From Cohaesibacter celericrescens (lineage in GTDB: Bacteria; Pseudomonadota; Alphaproteobacteria; Rhizobiales; Cohaesibacteraceae), in contig NZ_PKUQ01000042.1 in NCBI RefSeq assembly GCF_002866925.1, forward strand, positions 1 to 64,000: DNA of 64,000 nucleotides, in the 5' to 3' direction. The position numbers and the translations under genes are program-made. Under the pieces are notes generated by a model. It saw nothing but the letters and a program-made list of their open reading frames with translations, made no database searches and was not told the DNA's origin. Positions 1 to 17,058 of this stretch are shown here, in pieces. Positions within the stretch are counted from its first letter, which is position 1, and each line of letters starts with the position of its first letter.

Positions 1-503
1 GCAGCTCAGACCTATCTGGCGCCAATGGCCATAGAGGGCGGTAAGCGAACGTTCGCTGCACTTTTCACGAATTCATACACTGCGGACAAAAGCTGCCGTT
101 AGGTCTACAACTCTCCCTCCGCTGGTGGATATGAAAGGAAAACGAAAAATCTAAGTCGAAGGACTGTGTGTTGATAAATATTGGCACGATTAAGAGCAAA
201 TCTTCAATGCACTGCAAATTTGTTCAATCGTTCGGATGCCCGCTTCGTCTTTGATCCCGCGTTGGCAGCTCGTGTCCAGAGGAGAGGCCAACGAACAGAG
301 ACTATTGAGACAAGGCAGGTCCTACTGTGGTTCCTCAAGGTGAAGGAAACAATGGAGAGCTGACAGTCGCCATACCATGACACATCTGTGTCAGTAATGT
401 GTTTGTTTATCGCGAAGCCGATGCCTGTCCCCCAAGGTTGCGTCCGGCTAAGAATTGTTGCAAGTTGTAGAAATGAAGTTTTACATCTTTTTTGGGGGAA
501 TCA
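1..503. other. left flank with no supported gene
   Basis: I see no convincing gene here. The short open frames at 181-363 (TTG start) and 388-687 show no recognisable domain, and the second overlaps the real small gene beginning at 504. The stretch holds the presumed promoter of the 504-3488 operon and a perfect 16-bp palindrome at 378-393. A reading frame open from base 1 closes at 100-102 and is not recognisable. Confidence 0.5.
378..393. promoter_or_regulatory. perfect palindrome upstream of the cassette (candidate operator)
   Basis: TGACACA-TC-TGTGTCA is a perfect 7-2-7 inverted repeat 111 bp before the start at 504. Stem length and two-base spacer fit a dimeric regulator half-site pair better than a terminator, since no T-tract follows. 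No regulator gene lies in the visible cassette, so the cognate protein is unknown. It is similar to, but spaced differently from, the ATGACA-N4-TGTCAT sites at 8999, 9045 and 11252. Confidence 0.4.
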
Positions 504-866
504 ATGGGAAGTACCGGATCCGGCAATTTTTCAGATTATTCGGGCTCGCGGAACAATGACGGAACAGGAGGAACCAGCGGGGTCGATCGTTGTCGACAGG
601 CTTTCTCATGTTCTCTTGAAGAGATCGAGCTGTGTGATTACTTCAGAATGCACGCTGCCTTGCCTCCTGTTGGAACTGAGTTGGTGATAGTACACCAAAA
701 ACGTCTTTTTGCTGCAACTCAGCAGGGAGTAAAAGTTGGAGCATTACCTACCAGCTTTAATTATCTCGCAGCCTGCATGAAGGACGGTCTTTCCTATGTA
801 GGCGTCTTTACGGCTTCCACGATATTGCCAATACCAGTGGTATCTGCGGACTTCACAGCTCAGTGA
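504..866 (+). CDS. small protein with Met-Gly-Ser-rich N-terminal tail, first gene of the QueC-type cassette
   Basis: This 120-residue protein has two parts. The tail, about residues 1-27, is almost only Gly, Ser, Thr, Asn and Asp, starts MGSTGSG and carries an FSDYSGS element. The globular part, about 30-120, includes VGTELVIVHQKR and GALPTSFNYLAACMKDG. The ATG at 504 is preferred over an in-frame TTG at 492 because a G-rich ribosome-binding site (GGGGGA) sits about 5 bp upstream. It ends 9 bp before the PfkB fusion gene. I cannot assign a domain. I recall similar small proteins with a G/S-rich FSDY tail but cannot verify this. Removal of Met1 would expose Gly2, the kind of N-terminus I recall being modified by QueC-like enzymes in type IV CBASS and Qat. 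A substrate or effector role is therefore an inference. Confidence 0.7.
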   Translation: MGSTGSGNFSDYSGSRNNDGTGGTSGVDRCRQAFSCSLEEIELCDYFRMHAALPPVGTELVIVHQKRLFAATQQGVKVGALPTSFNYLAACMKDGLSYVGVFTASTILPIPVVSADFTAQ

Positions 867-875
867 GTATCTTAC

Positions 876-2198
876 ATGCTACCCCTATTGCTCGTCGGCG
901 AGATCATTGTCGACTTTACTGCAGCCCGCCCCGGCGCCGAATGTAAGTTACGACTGGGTGGTATTGTTCACGCAGCTCGTGGGTTATGGGCAAGCAGCAT
1001 TGATTATGCTGTTGCGGCTGTTTGCCCACATTATGTTGTTGATCAGGCAAAACGGTATCTCAACGCCCACGGTTGTCATGAATTCGTCTGGCTTGGAGAA
1101 GTAACCGGGTCTCCTGGTGTCATGGTGATTATTGACCCGACGGAGGTCGCTGATCAAGGATATGAGGATTTGCTCCGTGGTGAGAAAGAAATCACTATTA
1201 ACGAAGTCGGGAAATCGCTCGATGCGTATCGAGAGGTTCTGATTTTTCCAGGAGGCTTCGATCTCGCGCAGCTTCGAAGCATCTTTTCTAGTCAGGCACG
1301 CTTTAGTTTCGATATAGCATATGACACAGAGGATCTGTCCGTTCTGGCGCCGTTCGTGGGCAACATCAATGTGATCGTGATTTCGACGTCGTCTCCGCTC
1401 TTCATGCGCGTCGGATCAGAAAATATTGATAGTATGTTGCCCCTTATCGAAAAACTGGGTGCTGACGTTTTCCTCCTTAAAGAAAACCGGGGTGGGAGTC
1501 GTCTCTTCAACCTTTCAAACAGTTCTGTCGAAGCGATACCCGCTCAGTTGTCCGTCACGGTTAATTCCGTAGGAGTTGGCGATGTCTATACCGCCGTCAT
1601 GGTTGGGTTATCAGGGAGCTCATGGGAAGACGCCGCATGGAGGGGAGCCAGTGCTGCGACAGCCTATTCACAAACCACCTATCCGGATGATTTCAAGCGG
1701 GACTTGGAACGATCGTTCAGACTTTCTATAGATGAGCTACGCGATCTCGGAGGCACGATATTGCCGTGGCACACAAGGCGACAAACTTCCATTTATCTGG
1801 CCGCTCCAGATTTTTCGTATATTGACAAACCTGAAATCGATCGGACAATTGAAGCCCTGAGATACCACAACTTTAATGTGAGACGCCCCATCGAGGAGAA
1901 TGGCGAGCTTCCACTCGATAGCTCGGACGCTGTTTTAAGACAGACATTTTCTAAAGATCTTCGAATTCTTGACGAGTGTGCGGCCGTGTTTGCTGTTCCG
2001 CTGGGTAGAGATCCGGGAACCTTGGTTGAGATGGGCTACGCCGTTGCAAGGAAGCTGCCAGTTATTACGTTCGATCCACGCAGTGAGAACCATAACACAA
2101 TGGTCGTCGGCGGAAGCGTCTGCTATTCTGATAACTTGGATCAATGCTTGAACGGCCTGTTCGAAGCCGTTTCGAAACTCTGGATGGCACAGCAATGA
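876..2198 (+). CDS. PfkB-family nucleoside kinase fused to nucleoside 2-deoxyribosyltransferase
   Basis: A 440-residue two-domain protein. Residues about 1-290 resemble the PfkB/ribokinase fold: GG near 28-29 in the substrate lid region, and SVGVGDVYTA at 232-241 matching the DTxGAGD signature with the general-base Asp236 kept but the leading Asp replaced by Asn. Residues about 304-440 form a nucleoside 2-deoxyribosyltransferase-like domain: IYLAAP at 306-311 and DPGTLVEMGYA at 379-389, where Glu385 is the expected nucleophile. The first domain would phosphorylate a nucleoside and the second exchange or release the base of a 2'-deoxynucleoside. The stop overlaps the next start (ATGA), so translation with the QueC-like gene is probably coupled. 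The substrate is unknown. The fusion suggests base exchange and phosphorylation act on one intermediate. Confidence 0.8.
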   Translation: MLPLLLVGEIIVDFTAARPGAECKLRLGGIVHAARGLWASSIDYAVAAVCPHYVVDQAKRYLNAHGCHEFVWLGEVTGSPGVMVIIDPTEVADQGYEDLLRGEKEITINEVGKSLDAYREVLIFPGGFDLAQLRSIFSSQARFSFDIAYDTEDLSVLAPFVGNINVIVISTSSPLFMRVGSENIDSMLPLIEKLGADVFLLKENRGGSRLFNLSNSSVEAIPAQLSVTVNSVGVGDVYTAVMVGLSGSSWEDAAWRGASAATAYSQTTYPDDFKRDLERSFRLSIDELRDLGGTILPWHTRRQTSIYLAAPDFSYIDKPEIDRTIEALRYHNFNVRRPIEENGELPLDSSDAVLRQTFSKDLRILDECAAVFAVPLGRDPGTLVEMGYAVARKLPVITFDPRSENHNTMVVGGSVCYSDNLDQCLNGLFEAVSKLWMAQQ

Positions 2199-2836
2199 AA
2201 AAAGCGGTTCTCCTTGCTTCGGGCGGCCTCGACTCAACTACCGTCGCTTATGGTCTATTCGCAGATGGTATCGATGTGTTTCCTCTATTCTTTGACTACG
2301 GCCAGCACTGTGTCGAGACGGAATGGGGCAGGGTCAACGAAGTTCTACCACGCGACATGAGAAGCCCCGAACGCTGCGATATTTCCGATATTTTCAAAGG
2401 ATCTACATCTCGCCTTATAAAGGAAGCAAACCTTTGGCAAGACAACGTCGCTGACGACGATTTGTACGTGCCATATCGGACGCTGCTATTCTTCGCGGCG
2501 GCGGCGGCTCGAGCCCAAACGCTGGGTATTTTTGATGTTTATACGGGTTTCGTTAATAGTAACCACGCCAAGGAAATTGACTGCACCGCTGAGTTCATGA
2601 ACCAAATGGACGGCCTGATCGACAATATTGGTCCTGTCCGTTTCACCTCTCCATTCCGCTTTTCATCAAAAACCACTGTTGTCGAGGAGGCGCTGCGTCG
2701 CGGTGTTCCTATCGGCCGCACATTTTCGTGCCAAGCTGCAAGCGATTTCCCCTGTGGTGCCTGCCCGAATTGCGTCGAGCGCCTTCATGCGCTAAAGGAT
2801 GCTGCTGTCGTAATCTCTAAAGCTCAGGTCGACTAA
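2195..2836 (+). CDS. QueC-like 7-cyano-7-deazaguanine synthase, accessory copy
   Basis: 213 residues. QueC converts 7-carboxy-7-deazaguanine to preQ0 using ATP and ammonia. Visible signatures are the PP-loop SGGLDS at residues 9-14 and a C-terminal zinc site of four cysteines at 179, 187, 190 and 193 (C-x7-C-GA-C-PN-C). Both fit an intact enzyme. The ATG at 2195 overlaps the upstream stop by 4 bp and gives a normal N-terminus. No queD, queE, folE or tgt lies alongside, so this is not a plain queuosine operon. Company with a glycosylase-like protein, a deoxyribosyltransferase and a G/S-tailed small protein recalls the QueC-like enzymes of type IV CBASS and Qat. The exact product here could be preQ0 or a deazaguanine-protein adduct. 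Confidence 0.88.
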   Translation: MKKAVLLASGGLDSTTVAYGLFADGIDVFPLFFDYGQHCVETEWGRVNEVLPRDMRSPERCDISDIFKGSTSRLIKEANLWQDNVADDDLYVPYRTLLFFAAAAARAQTLGIFDVYTGFVNSNHAKEIDCTAEFMNQMDGLIDNIGPVRFTSPFRFSSKTTVVEEALRRGVPIGRTFSCQAASDFPCGACPNCVERLHALKDAAVVISKAQVD

Positions 2837-2837
2837 A

Positions 2838-3488
2838 ATGCATTCTTCTGCGATACATATGCTAGTTTCTGCTCGTCGCGTGGCGAATTACGCCCTTGAG
2901 GTCGGAGCCGATATCAACGGAGAGGCGGTTCGCCCCTCTTGCCAGCATATGGGTGCCATCTTAGCGGACTGCATTCTGCAGGCGGGCCTAAATTACAGGT
3001 CCGTAGTTCTTCCTCGCGTCTCGGCTATTCTAGAGGACTTTCCCGGTCTTGATTGCACTTCCGAACTGGTAGCTCTAGTTGGGCGAGGAGAAACCGACCG
3101 CTTCCTAAACTGGGACCATCACGAAAAGATCGATCGCTTCAAAGCGCTTGTCGGCTTCCTGAGCGAGCGCTCTGTAGAGAATGCGGCTACTTTAAAGGAT
3201 CATTTGCAAGACGCATCCTTCGTAGAAGCCTTGCTTGGCGTGAGGGGGGTAGGTCCGAAAACTGTTGACTATATGCAATGCTTGGTTGGTATCGACTCTA
3301 TTGCAGTTGATAGGCACGTACGAACCTTTGCCAAACGTGTCGGCGTCGTTGAGGAAGATTATGATTTCCTAAAATCGGTCTTCTGCTACGCCGCCGATCT
3401 GCTGTCGGTCTCCCGCCGTGAATTCGATGCATGGGTTTGGCGATGGGAGGCATCGGCAACTAACCCACAGTTAGGGTTTTCATTCTAA
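2838..3488 (+). CDS. helix-hairpin-helix DNA glycosylase/lyase-like protein
   Basis: 216 residues, starting one base after the QueC-like stop. The C-terminal half has the core of the endonuclease III/OGG superfamily: a helix-hairpin-helix at about 133-146 (LLGVRGVGPKTVDYM, with Lys141 where bifunctional enzymes carry the Schiff-base lysine) and AVDRHV at 156-161 giving the catalytic Asp158. There is no C-terminal four-Cys iron-sulfur loop, so it is nearer the OGG type than Nth or MutY. The first 120 residues are unlike common OGG N-termini. Expected activity is excision of a modified or unusual base, possibly with strand cleavage. In this operon a substrate related to 7-deazaguanine or another altered purine is plausible but unproven. 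Confidence 0.75.
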   Translation: MHSSAIHMLVSARRVANYALEVGADINGEAVRPSCQHMGAILADCILQAGLNYRSVVLPRVSAILEDFPGLDCTSELVALVGRGETDRFLNWDHHEKIDRFKALVGFLSERSVENAATLKDHLQDASFVEALLGVRGVGPKTVDYMQCLVGIDSIAVDRHVRTFAKRVGVVEEDYDFLKSVFCYAADLLSVSRREFDAWVWRWEASATNPQLGFSF

Positions 3489-3595
3489 CCGAAATCCGAG
3501 ATGCCTTCGAATCTTTCCGACATGCCATCGCATGGTAGTTCCACCAATATCTATATAGCAAAGTGGGGGGTCTCTATGCTGTCTACGTGTATAAA

Positions 3596-5017
3596 CTAGA
3601 TCGGCTTGAACATGCTTTCTGCAGAATCGGATCGGAGTCTCGCCCAAAACTCCACCGCGTACCTATCCGTCATACCAGCCACGAAATCGCAAATATGGCG
3701 CGCCTTCAGAGCCTCTCCATCCGCATCCTGAACAAGTCTACGCACGTCGTCAGGCATAAGTAGATAACCATTCTTTTTTTGTAGGGCATCAAAAATGTCG
3801 CTTACAAGCTCGGTGCCGCGATATTCGCCGAGCTTCACACGATTCGAGTAGATCGTTGACAGGTAGGTATACTGTTTGAGGACCTCTACTTTTATTCGAG
3901 TTTCCTTTTTCAGTTTAACTATTGAAAGCGCAGGAAGCTCCTCGTTCTTCGTCAGCACGACATCGTTGATGAATTCGTGTACCAATTCCGAAGACAACTT
4001 CATCCTATTGCCCGCATCCATGTTAAGATCGCGGGAAGCTTGCATCACACTGACGAAGTTAGCGATATCATCCTGTTTTCGTTCGTCATTGTCACCCAAA
4101 GTCTTAGATTTTTCGAAACTAAAAATATCGCCGAAGACATCAAAAAGTTTGGAGTGGACTTGAGCCTCAGTGACGGGTTCTCCCACGTCATCCTTCAGCT
4201 GCTCGGTAACTACTTTGGCAACCCGTTTCAACAACTCATGGTCGGTCGACAGTATAGAAGCTGGTGTCAGAAAGCCCGCCTTCAGACTGTCTTCTAGATC
4301 ATAAACTGAGTAGGCGATATCGTCAGCTATATCCATTATAGCACATTCAACCGTCTTGAACTTACGGCCTTCAGGCAGCTTCCTTTCTCCGATTACGTTC
4401 CGTTTTATTTCCTCGACTATATTCGCTTCAGAGGCGTAGTAACCCTTTTTCGGTTTGGAATCATCGGGTCTTTCAAAAGGGATCTCAAAGTCATATTTCA
4501 GAATAGACCCCAGAGTTCGAAAGCATAGATTCATGCCTGCGCGCGAGTCACCATCTTTCGGGTTCTTGTATTTTGCTTTTTTCTCGAGGCGGCTCAATAT
4601 GCGAAGCGTCTGAGCGTTTCCTTCAAACCCTCCATACATCCTCATCTTTTCGTCAAGCGCCCGCTCTCCGTTGTGACCGAACGGTGGATGCCCGATGTCG
4701 TGAATAAGACCAGCTGCCGCACACAGCCTGCTATCGATCTCCACGTTGCCTATATGCGTCTTGTAGACGTGATTTAGGCGGTCTGCGATACCTTCCGCGA
4801 TTTGCGCAACTTCAAGCGAATGCGTAAGCCGGTTCCGGAAGAAGTCAGACTCATGTCCCGGAAAAACTTGCGTTTTTCCTTGCAGTCGCCTAAAACTTGC
4901 ACTGTGAATGATCCTGCCGTAATCACGGACAAAAGCTGGCCTCCAAGGATCAGGCTTATCAACCTCGCCGTTCTGGCGTAGAAAGTCCCGCTCCCTGTAC
5001 ATCCTTGTAAGCATCAT
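3596..5017 (-). CDS. dGTPase-family HD-domain deoxynucleotide triphosphohydrolase
   Basis: About 473 residues. The family hydrolyses dGTP, or dNTPs more widely, to deoxynucleoside and tripolyphosphate. The HD metal site is clear: His in RLTHSLEV near residue 66 and His-Asp in LIHDIGHPPFGHNGE near 106-107, with the downstream ERPDD and YSVYDLEDSLKAG segments typical of Dgt. I chose the ATG at 5017 because an AGGT lies 6 bp upstream across the stop of the preceding small gene. ATG at 5014 or 5002 is also possible. It is last of three minus-strand genes and converges on the glycosylase gene 107 bp away. dGTPases that deplete nucleotides during phage infection are a known defence type, which fits the neighbourhood. 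Confidence 0.88.
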   Translation of the reverse strand: MMLTRMYRERDFLRQNGEVDKPDPWRPAFVRDYGRIIHSASFRRLQGKTQVFPGHESDFFRNRLTHSLEVAQIAEGIADRLNHVYKTHIGNVEIDSRLCAAAGLIHDIGHPPFGHNGERALDEKMRMYGGFEGNAQTLRILSRLEKKAKYKNPKDGDSRAGMNLCFRTLGSILKYDFEIPFERPDDSKPKKGYYASEANIVEEIKRNVIGERKLPEGRKFKTVECAIMDIADDIAYSVYDLEDSLKAGFLTPASILSTDHELLKRVAKVVTEQLKDDVGEPVTEAQVHSKLFDVFGDIFSFEKSKTLGDNDERKQDDIANFVSVMQASRDLNMDAGNRMKLSSELVHEFINDVVLTKNEELPALSIVKLKKETRIKVEVLKQYTYLSTIYSNRVKLGEYRGTELVSDIFDALQKKNGYLLMPDDVRRLVQDADGEALKARHICDFVAGMTDRYAVEFWARLRSDSAESMFKPI

Positions 5018-5025
5018 CAGAGTAC

Positions 5026-5160
5026 CTATGACCGCGCAGACACCAAGTTTTGAGCTTCCTTCTCGCGCTTGAGCTCTAGCCATAGCCGTACTGCTTCGCG
5101 AACACTCTCCTGATTAGCTTCTGCTGCCTTACGGGCTTCGATTACTGCTGTGTATGCCAT
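5026..5160 (-). CDS. 44-residue helical peptide upstream of the dGTPase gene
   Basis: A short gene starting with ATG at 5160 behind a good ribosome-binding site (AGGAG, 8 bp upstream) and ending 8 bp before the dGTPase start. The product is charged and looks like one or two amphipathic helices (MAYTAVIEARKAAEANQ at the start, then an Arg/Glu/Leu-rich stretch). No domain is recognised. Position suggests co-translation with the dGTPase; a regulatory or adaptor role for it is only a guess. Confidence 0.6.
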   Translation of the reverse strand: MAYTAVIEARKAAEANQESVREAVRLWLELKREKEAQNLVSARS

Positions 5161-5253
5161 GTTTTTGCTCCTACTCAGCGCTTGAGATGAGGTATAACGA
5201 ACCTGCGCCATCATTGGTTAACGATTGGTTTACTAAATCTATTTTGGCAAAGA

Positions 5254-6651
5254 CTATTGTGCACTGACTCGAGCTGGCACACCAGCCTTCCGCAAGACAT
5301 CCGCAATGTGGCTGGTTAGTCCGATTCTACGATCAAGCACAATGCCCGTGTTTGGTTTCAAATTGGCGGAAAGCAACCTTAGAGCTTCCAGTCCCTGAGA
5401 CACGTCGAAGTCCACCCATTCACTTGCATCTCCCGGCACAATGGTATCGCCGTTCGATATGCTAGCTCCACTATGCAGCTGGACGATCCAGAGTTCAGTC
5501 CCGTCAAAGACCCATTCAAACCTCGTCGCACCAAGAATGCCACGTAGTCGGCCATGAACTTCATACACACGCGAAAGAACGCGTTCGGGAACCGGTTCGG
5601 GGTTCGCTAGTCCAACCATGAAGCGGTCCCCGGTCCCTTTGATGCCCTCGACCACGAGGTCTCCATTTGACGTCTCGATGGCAGCGCCTGACCATTGAGC
5701 CGCTACGCCTTTCTGGGCAAGCACTGAAGAAATTGCGATACCGTCTGGATCCTCGCGCTGCAGTAAGGCGAACGGATCTTGCCACCCGCGCGCAGTGGTA
5801 AACTTTCCGGGTACCTGCTCACGCGGGCTCGTTCGTATCCAAATTTCCTCAAGGCCAGTTCCATGTCCAAATGAGAATGGCGCAACACGCCGGCCTATAA
5901 CGGTGGTTCTTGGAACGGGAAAGCCGCTCATATCAGCGATCAACAGCCCATAAGCTTTATCACCGATCATACGACTGAAATCGTTTGGCCACTCTACCTT
6001 GATAGATCCAGTAGGAAAAAAGTCGTCGGAACGCTCCCAGAAGATTACATTATCCTGCTTCCAACCTCTAGGCTTGGGGTGCAGACTAAATTCGAGTCGT
6101 CCTTTTCGGCCACCGGAGAAATCGACATCTATTCCGTACACTGTCTTGAAAAGATGAATGGCCCACTCAGTTGGAAGACGTGCGAAACCAGGCTTTTCGA
6201 CGCCACGGGGTGTCATGTCAGGACGGAATTCGACAACGTCGCCCATCACAACACCAGATACGCCGCCATCCGAAACATCGATCGTCTCGTTGACGATCGT
6301 GAACGCCCCCTCGTCAGTGAAGCGCTTAACCGCGTCGACAGCAGCATCGGCATTGTCTACGCCATAGAGGAACTCCCTGCTTTGGGATTGTTCAGCACTG
6401 AAGCTGCGAACGTTAACCGTTCCCTCGGAACTGCGCTCGAAAAGAATCTGTATTGCCTCGGCGACTGATTCGAACCGGTGGTTCGCTTCGATATCAGCGA
6501 TGCGGCAGAATTGCTGTTCTGGTCCGTACTCCGCAGGAGCGAAGCTGACGAACTGAGCGACGTTGAACGTTTCCGCCAACCGATCCAACGTTTTGTCTTT
6601 TCTGAAAGCCCATACGTTTGGTTGATTAAATTTCTTGTGCGAACTGTTCAA
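5254..6651 (-). CDS. protein resembling the ATP-grasp region of PEP synthase/pyruvate phosphate dikinase
   Basis: About 465 residues, not identified with certainty. NVRSFSAEQSQSREFLYGV near residues 80-98 is placed like the RSSAxxEDxxxxSFAG strand of PEP synthase-type ATP-grasp domains. DVSDGGVSGVVMGDVVEF a little later resembles the strand that precedes their GVMFT element. ELWIVQLHSG near 390 resembles the WxxQxRP strand that closes the nucleotide site. No phosphohistidine or PEP-binding domain is visible, so any activity would be ATP-dependent ligation or phosphotransfer without the full dikinase cycle. An in-frame GTG at 6657 is too close to AAGGAA; TTG at 6651 has better spacing and was chosen. 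It leads the minus-strand set with the 44-residue peptide and dGTPase. Confidence 0.55.
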   Translation of the reverse strand: MNSSHKKFNQPNVWAFRKDKTLDRLAETFNVAQFVSFAPAEYGPEQQFCRIADIEANHRFESVAEAIQILFERSSEGTVNVRSFSAEQSQSREFLYGVDNADAAVDAVKRFTDEGAFTIVNETIDVSDGGVSGVVMGDVVEFRPDMTPRGVEKPGFARLPTEWAIHLFKTVYGIDVDFSGGRKGRLEFSLHPKPRGWKQDNVIFWERSDDFFPTGSIKVEWPNDFSRMIGDKAYGLLIADMSGFPVPRTTVIGRRVAPFSFGHGTGLEEIWIRTSPREQVPGKFTTARGWQDPFALLQREDPDGIAISSVLAQKGVAAQWSGAAIETSNGDLVVEGIKGTGDRFMVGLANPEPVPERVLSRVYEVHGRLRGILGATRFEWVFDGTELWIVQLHSGASISNGDTIVPGDASEWVDFDVSQGLEALRLLSANLKPNTGIVLDRRIGLTSHIADVLRKAGVPARVSAQ

Positions 6652-7289
6652 AGTCACTTCCTTTGATTCGACGATACCTCAACACGTGGTTCGTGCCTAT
6701 CTGGTGCATCCTATTCGTCCGTTTCGAAATGGCCAAATGACATTGGGTTACATCTTCGAAGTCTCCCCAGCTTTATAAATAGAACTAACCTGTGCTGATG
6801 TGCAACAATGCTACTAGCGCGTACTCAGCAAGAGGAAGCCGTTTTCCGCCTGACGGTCGCAAAAATGGAACAACAAGGTCACGTGTAAATGGTTCCAGTT
6901 TGCGTGCCATTTTCTGGTTTCTCTAGCTGGTTTAATCTTGAGTGCCTTCCTCAGGACAGTTGGTGACATCTGCTTTCGAGACGCTCGCCATGAATGAAAG
7001 AATGACGCGAAGTGTTCACTATTACTCGCAAATTGAATGGCAACTACGGGGTAGGGAGTGACCATTCCGTAATTGTGTATGAACGACGGCTCTGGGCCGT
7101 TCTGTTGAATTCAAATGGCCCCAAAATTCCACGTTGTATTGCGCTGCATTAGGCCGGTTAGAGCCCAAAACGTCTATTCTAGATGAGGGCTTGTGAGCGA
7201 AAGAAGGATGCCTGAATTGCGTAAGAACAATCTTTCGCAAGTTTAGAGAGGCGAAAGACAGGCGATTGCGGCAAGGGGGGTAATCATTC
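6652..7289. other. about 640 bp without a supported gene
   Basis: The stretch separates the nucleotide-chemistry cassette from the YHYH gene. Short minus-strand frames (6814-7065, 7022-7408) have no recognisable protein, and the second runs into the YHYH gene in another frame. It should contain the promoter of the minus-strand set near 6660-6760. I see no strong hairpin, repeat or RNA gene. Confidence 0.5.
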
Positions 7290-16984: not shown

Positions 16985-17058
16985 TGGAGCGGGTGAAGGG
17001 AATCGAACCCTCGTCGTAAGCTTGGGAAGCTTCTGCTCTGCCATTGAGCTACACCCGC
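16985..17058 (-). tRNA. tRNA-Gly (anticodon CCC)
   Basis: 74 nt on the minus strand with acceptor GCGGGTG paired to CACCCGC, D arm GCTC-AATGGCA-GAGC, anticodon loop TTCCCAA giving CCC, T arm with GGTTCGATTCC, and encoded CCA end. The anticodon stem has one non-Watson-Crick outer pair. Its 3' end faces the recombinase remnant, so it is the probable attachment site of the island to its left. Confidence 0.95.

Follow-up and report, generated by a model that had tools for sequence, protein, structure and literature searches.

A widespread four-gene bacterial operon that is probably immune and resembles protein–nucleobase conjugation systems

The locus in Cohaesibacter celericrescens

We analysed a stretch of 64,000 nucleotides from the alphaproteobacterium Cohaesibacter celericrescens (contig NZ_PKUQ01000042.1, positions 1 to 64,000; hereafter the window), which carries seven genes in two convergent sets at positions 504–6657, based on the open reading frame (ORF) calls. 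An earlier note on this DNA had proposed the seven genes as one nucleobase-chemistry defence cassette. All seven are present according to the ORFs and family scans, but they do not form one unit: the core consists of the four plus-strand genes, the dGTPase is optional, and p6 and p7 travel with dGTPases in rhizobial relatives. The four-gene operon is real, widespread and probably immune. By analogy, it probably acts like a protein–nucleobase conjugation system, yet it belongs to neither the type IV cyclic oligonucleotide-based antiphage signalling system (CBASS) nor Qat. The features of the locus are as follows:

504–866, plus strand: small protein of 120 amino acids, with an N-terminal tail, MGSTGSGNFSDY (conserved, probably disordered), and a HIRAN-fold domain in the predicted model; putative conjugation substrate and sensor
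876–2198, plus strand: fusion of a PfkB-like kinase and a nucleoside 2-deoxyribosyltransferase (NDT), P0002, 440 amino acids; GVGD and the NDT Glu (E385) conserved
2195–2836, plus strand: QueC-like ATP-dependent ligase, 213 amino acids, with SGGLDS, YGQ(x)5E and C(x)7CxxCxxC; a Tyr replaced by E127, D129 kept
2838–3488, plus strand: HhH-GPD (OGG/endonuclease III-like) glycosylase/lyase, 216 amino acids; K141 and D158 conserved (65/65)
3596–5002, minus strand: dGTPase (P0005) with an HD domain, of the anti-phage dGTPase family; the ORF is open to 5083, and comparison with homologues places the start likely near 5002
5026–5160, minus strand: p6, a 44-residue peptide conserved between P0007 and the dGTPase in rhizobial relatives
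5254–6657, minus strand: p7 (P0007), 467 amino acids, with a GLTSH motif at its end; read by eye as a phosphoenolpyruvate-synthase-like ATP-grasp plus phosphohistidine swivel; modular dGTPase partner
About 92–7101, no strand: mobile unit of about 7 kb, common to two same-genus genomes with different flanks

The window starts at the contig end, so that the left flank of the locus lies outside view. The small protein, p6 and p7 have no informative family match in the Pfam, PADLOC and NCBIfam scans, and a PDB search with P0007 gave no match. The nearest named cassettes are those of Mesorhizobium and Phyllobacterium (81–82% protein identity).

Conservation and distribution of the four-gene core

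All four genes, in the order small protein–NDT–QueC–HhH, share one strand in 53 of the 58 loci, and their longest ORFs are never more than 16 bp apart. The 58 loci were obtained from a fusion-protein scan of genomes from 84,980 species, and a locus with a split HhH ORF (L037) is counted among the 53. The co-occurrence in unrelated genomes that the earlier note had asked about is thus borne out for the four core genes. The record titles of the 58 loci name genera or bins of Alpha-, Beta-, Gamma- and Deltaproteobacteria as well as Bacteroidota. Of the other five, two (L059 and L067) are truncated where their contigs end, and the cores of L072, L078 and L079 are partial.

In the plasmid collection, the full four genes are present in Cupriavidus pENH92, a Neotabrizicola plasmid and a chromosome-sized Proteus record, and a core remnant is found on an Agrobacterium plasmid. 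The core is complete in four of seven IMG/VR contigs. Of the other three, L086 has a split fusion gene, and L080 and L082 stop short of the HhH gene. Among 50,697 phage records, none gave a tblastn match to P0002, and E. coli gave no match at the DNA level. Within the genus, the core is present in 2 of 17 genomes apart from the window's own.

The window and the genomes G002 and G003 have the roughly 7 kb listed above in common at 88–95% DNA identity, with different flanks, which identifies this DNA as a mobile unit. A palindrome, AGCGAACGTTCGCT, lies near its left end (window 36–103) and is partly common to G002 and G003. The integration site that had been described next to the cassette was not confirmed: the sole tRNA gene of the window is at 16985, and the rest of the window was not searched for integrases.

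Conserved domains and residues of the core enzymes

The fusion protein contains PF05014 (3.4e-14), whereas its PfkB match (12.5 bits) is under the Pfam cut-off of 25.8. A profile of six fusion sequences matches deoxyribosyltransferases (1.7e-7) and ribokinase (0.0012) in the PDB. GVGD is kept in 68/68 sequences and the NDT Glu in 66/68. The HhH protein has no Pfam match; it matches the PADLOC OGG model (5.4e-4 over 165 residues) and otherwise weak glycosylase models. The HhH Lys/Asp pair, GVGD and the NDT Glu are taken here as catalytic residues.

The QueC-like protein contains PF06508 (1.9e-28) and matches the PADLOC QueC model (3.6e-24). Its PDB matches are E. coli QueC (2pg3, 6.6e-11), Cap9 (9nto, 1.8e-10) and B. 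subtilis QueC (1.9e-5), so canonical QueC (2pg3) scores as well as Cap9. The spacings of SGGLDS, YGQ(x)5E and C(x)7CxxCxxC match those given for Cap9 in the available text of PMC13329287. In Cap9, according to the available part of PMC13279940, a Tyr stacks on the base and an Asp reads its Watson–Crick edge. The Asp aligned with this reader is kept in all three versions of the core that we distinguish (A, that of the window, B and C), D129 being present in 56/56 sequences of version A. The position of the stacking Tyr is occupied by Glu in version A (56/56), His in version B (15/15) and Phe in version C (2/2); canonical QueC has Tyr in 13 of 14 rows and one gap. In a QueC tree built without Cap9 or QatC, version A is a separate clade (support 0.93) under midpoint rooting, a rooting under which canonical QueC is not one clade and with one of the 14 canonical rows badly aligned. 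Cap9 was also sought through the PADLOC OGG model; four of ten matching genomes were followed, and no neighbourhood in them matched the profiles of the core QueC, OGG, NDT and small protein. From the residues that are kept, the core enzymes all look enzymatically competent.

The small protein

The small protein had been described as Gly/Ser-tailed; the Gly/Ser stretch exists, but the tail is N-terminal. All 61 distinct small proteins start with Met-Gly, mostly as MGS[ST]xSGxx[ST]DY, and the tail has a low predicted local distance difference test score (pLDDT) in the predicted model. A tail of this kind, disordered in the model and with a Gly that would be exposed once Met is removed, fits the partners of N-terminal deazaguanylation (MG 61/61, low pLDDT). 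The remainder of the protein is a predicted HIRAN fold, based on comparison of the model with VIA-align. HIRAN is a DNA-end-binding domain. Six A and two B small proteins have 13 invariant columns out of 141 in their alignment. An S-layer protein matched by the small-protein profile in the PDB (0.0018) was judged a chance match.

By analogy with the CD-NTase of type IV CBASS and with QatB, we infer that the small protein is a nucleobase-conjugation substrate. The strongest argument for the tail as substrate is that a Gly-Ser tail is found on different partners beside the same kinds of enzyme.

Related cores: versions B and C

Version B consists of a small protein, mostly with an MSG start, followed by NDT and QueC, often with an HhH gene nearby. 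We assign it to the published QueC Cluster 4, as described in the available text of PMC13329287, by its PfkB–PF05014 neighbour and by motifs read by eye. Its extra genes include a dGTPase (L015, L089, L092, L112, L119) and a restriction endonuclease (L012, L016, L112), and further neighbours are a DNA adenine methylase, a TIR protein and a YhhQ-type transporter. On two haloarchaeal plasmids the B-version tails are MGGG and MCGG. The tagged proteins of this pair (L091 3916–5004, L093 4345–5004) appear to have the small domain in duplicate after a tail rich in Gly/Ser, which starts MGGGSGG... and MCGGGS... and is long and acidic in L091.

Version C is found on rhizobial plasmids (L094 4953–9364, L095 4995–9359) and comprises an NDT fusion, a TIR protein, HhH, QueC and a second TIR protein that starts MGGGSSGSW. 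Its NDT and HhH proteins are distant from those of version A (about 50 and 17 bits). Version C may be an independent immune system with a tagged TIR protein.

Two other observations concern version B. Its cores in L089 (7681–9978, Rhizobium) and L090 (1471–4279, Synechocystis) adjoin multiubiquitin/ThiF/DUF6527 clusters, a bacterial ubiquitin-like conjugation set. A nitroreductase-like gene, variously annotated as nitroreductase, hypothetical or dehydrogenase, follows several B-version QueC genes (L087 6789–7478, L090 6827–7453, L092 6792–7466). It faces the HhH gene, along with a DNA adenine methylase gene, in convergent orientation.

Neighbouring genes

The 99 immediate neighbours of A-version cores matched 364 PADLOC models, compared with 7 for 99 control genes taken from the window's genome at nine places, a difference to be read with the controls coming from one genome and the neighbours from many, and with overlapping models (many of them ATPase models) inflating the 364. 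To this extent the expected setting among defence genes was found. Among the models listed, the neighbours include dGTPase (eight members), AbiLi (three), Septu PtuA (three) and type III restriction (two). The controls contain no dGTPase (8 vs 0, p = 0.007), and the generic mad3 model is matched in neighbours (4) and controls (3) alike. Pfam matches listed for the neighbours include integrase domains and, in four members, DUF6441, which we take to be a phage gene.

The dGTPase, p6 and p7

The window's dGTPase has the HD motif and scores 405 bits with the anti-phage dGTPase model NF041026, the curated cut-off being 400. The dGTPase is a recurrent, optional partner of the core. It is the commonest recurrent neighbour, found in 13 of 68 loci (11 of the 58 genome loci; near-identical Mesorhizobium loci are each counted singly) in five arrangements, upstream or downstream and on either strand. 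It lies on the same strand 22 bp (L064) and 11 bp (L074) downstream of the core, and in L015 it overlaps the B-version QueC.

The set p7–p6–dGTPase, with p6 in the middle, adjoins the core in Mesorhizobium, Phyllobacterium and the genus of the window. In Rhizobium CC1099 and CB3060 it adjoins cores of version B. In L119, p7 and dGTPase are found beside a B core and p6 was not called. Searches anchored on P0007 found 7 of 397 same-order genomes and 13 plasmid records, of which 7 and 7 were examined; the plasmid records are not a random sample, and L089 had come up earlier in the search for the core. The core is present beside p7 with dGTPase in 6/7 cases and beside p7 without dGTPase in its flanks of 5–8 kb in 0/7 (p = 0.005). 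When the window's genus, which accounts for three of the seven genomes, is counted once, the figures are 4/5 and 0/7 (p about 0.01 by hand). The earlier note had named independent occurrence of the strand sets, with no defence neighbours, as evidence against its proposal; by these counts the two gene sets are linked beyond chance yet separable. In L118, p7–p6–dGTPase exists with no core in its 17 kb. The p7 homologues of L113, L114 and L116 are near adenylosuccinate synthetase genes, with no dGTPase, which suggests that in rhizobia p7 may be a partner of defence enzymes of nucleotide metabolism more generally.

These data bear on the possibility that the sets on the two strands are distinct defence systems in one island, the dGTPase/p7 pair acting alone. 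We give this a sizeable chance, although short of an even one. The core-free set in L118 and the dGTPase count fit it, most A-version loci having no dGTPase in the examined flank, and dGTPases are known as anti-phage enzymes that stand alone, in line with the family name NF041026. The repeated recruitment of dGTPases in different positions (L064, L074 and L015) and the presence of the core beside p7 with dGTPase (6/7) but not beside p7 without it (0/7) argue against it.

Comparison with known systems

The locus had been described as resembling type IV CBASS without a CD-NTase or tRNA-guanine transglycosylase (TGT), and this description holds: neither is found among the window proteins in the family scans. 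Type IV CBASS proper was rejected on this ground and because a CD-NTase is near the core in only 1 of 42 hosts. This single neighbour (PF18144), at the Mucilaginibacter locus L076, is on the opposite strand and its start is untagged (no MG tail). TGT was matched by none of the seven window proteins (Pfam, PADLOC, NCBIfam), and the other loci were not searched for it. In common with type IV CBASS are a QueC-like ligase with Cap9-type zinc spacing, an HhH-GPD protein, an MG-S-tailed partner and a base-exchange-type glycosyltransferase. The differences are an operon without CD-NTase, NDT–PfkB in place of TGT, the tag on a HIRAN protein and the change of the stacking Tyr to Glu.

The qatABCD system also pairs a QueC-family enzyme with a protein whose unstructured tail begins MG[TS]S, but the seven window genes include neither QatA nor QatD, and the partner here is HIRAN rather than the helical QatB. 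The operon's QueC (213 amino acids) lacks the N- and C-terminal extensions of QatC and keeps Asp where QatC, with its Thr/Thr substrate site, has Thr; the QatC model NF041925 gives it 17.5 bits (cut-off 280). P0005, like the stand-alone anti-phage dGTPases (NF041026), is above their cut-off, but it lies beside a conjugation core with p6 and p7.

Concerning QueC Cluster 4 (Libby et al. 2026; PMC13329287, available text), a QueC-like gene is likewise found there beside a PF00294–PF05014 fusion, and version B fits it, whereas the window's version A is a separate clade, having the zinc spacing C(x)7C as well as E127. The main text of that paper proposes purine salvage and mentions neither HIRAN nor OGG. 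We found no published description of the four-gene operon save the QueC/PfkB–NDT linkage in the same available text, in a search from which preprints and supplements were mostly left out. Nucleobase–protein conjugation has been reported for type IV CBASS (PMC11996544) and proposed for Qat (PMC13279940), as far as the available texts of these papers go.

Proposed mechanism and alternatives

We favour, with moderate confidence, an anti-phage module that is mobile and resembles in its action the conjugation part of type IV CBASS, with a substrate of its own. The small protein would lose its Met, and the disordered tail would place its Gly2 in the QueC-like enzyme, which would adenylate a guanine-like nucleobase and join it to the N-terminal amine. 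The NDT domain may then transfer deoxyribose to the protein-bound base, or remove it, and the PfkB-like domain may phosphorylate the sugar to give a protein-linked nucleoside or nucleotide; the fusion would replace the TGT-family Cap10 of CBASS. The HIRAN domain would bind free DNA ends that arise when phages replicate or host DNA is degraded, which would bring the tagged tip to DNA, and the HhH-GPD lyase might excise the base, cut the DNA there or edit the tag. A variable effector, here the dGTPase, would drain dGTP and stop phage replication; the dGTPase would also provide deoxyguanosine as deoxyribose donor.

Several results weigh against this proposal. The stacking Tyr is replaced in every A-version QueC. 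The B-version tails mostly start MSG, that is, with Ser2. The HIRAN assignment of the small protein is taken from a predicted model, and the PADLOC count is subject to the inflation and uneven sampling given above. The many A-version loci with no dGTPase in the examined flank mean that effector and core are not obligately linked. Simple Cap9 chemistry is also at odds with the distribution of QueD, which is present in 31 of 42 hosts; the share of hosts without it (11/42) equals that among control genomes of the same phylum, the window's own included (51/199, p = 1). The window's genome and the 99%-complete congener G002 have no QueD, and the cassette's protein is the only full-length PF06508 match. 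Host-made carboxy-deazaguanine can thus not be the required substrate everywhere. YhhQ is found in 11/11 QueD-less hosts and in 40/51 QueD-less controls (p = 0.19), so salvage is possible but not significant against background. Dependence on host 7-deazaguanine synthesis was considered and rejected: QueD or YhhQ is present in 42/42 hosts, yet also in 188/199 controls (p = 0.22; overlap of the two counted by hand). The QueD results suggest that the base is salvaged or differs from the Cap9 substrate, and the Tyr-to-Glu change points the same way.

An alternative is DNA-modification defence, in which QueC, NDT and PfkB would make a modified deoxynucleotide for DNA, HhH would remove it from invading or host DNA, HIRAN would recruit the machinery to DNA ends and the tail would be only a docking peptide. 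NDT and PfkB would indeed yield a deoxynucleoside 5'-phosphate, HhH keeps its Lys/Asp pair, and HIRAN, a fold predicted here from the model, binds DNA ends. Phages with 7-deazaguanine DNA modification exist, according to the available text of PMC6884629. We consider this explanation unlikely, given that no DNA transglycosylase such as DpdA is found near the core (in the scans of the window proteins and among the matches listed for the neighbours) and that an invariant Met-Gly start is what modification at the N-terminus, as with QatB and CD-NTase, would lead one to expect. Least probable, and in our judgement quite improbable, is a purine or 7-deazapurine salvage operon with no immune role, as the available text of PMC13329287 proposes for QueC Cluster 4: kinase and deoxyribosyltransferase are salvage-type enzymes and a YhhQ-type transporter adjoins one B-version core (L013), but the core is patchy in distribution, is carried by plasmids, by viral contigs and by a mobile unit of 7 kb, has defence neighbours and a TIR version, does not track the host 7-deazaguanine pathway, and has an invariant tail on a HIRAN protein that would serve no salvage role.

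Implications

The favoured conjugation module can be extended, more tentatively, to a new immune class: a DNA-end sensor of the HIRAN type would receive a nucleobase, perhaps not 7-deazaguanine, at its N-terminus, and this base would be built into a protein-linked deoxynucleotide. QueC ligases would then tag interchangeable partners (CD-NTase, QatB, HIRAN, TIR), and the nucleobase-tagged effector would be a general principle of prokaryotic immunity; we put this forward as a possibility that is, as a whole, less likely than not. Tagging of an N-terminal glycine by the QueC family is known; what would be new is the HIRAN partner, the NDT–PfkB second enzyme and perhaps the base. If true, a HIRAN DNA-end binder and, in a related core, a TIR protein would join the substrates of conjugation, and the role of the second enzyme would be hinted at as base-exchange chemistry by TGT or NDT. 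The compact four-gene loci make both chemistry and trigger directly testable. The proposal would also offer another reading of QueC Cluster 4, so far filed under purine salvage, and would tie anti-phage dGTPases to conjugation chemistry.

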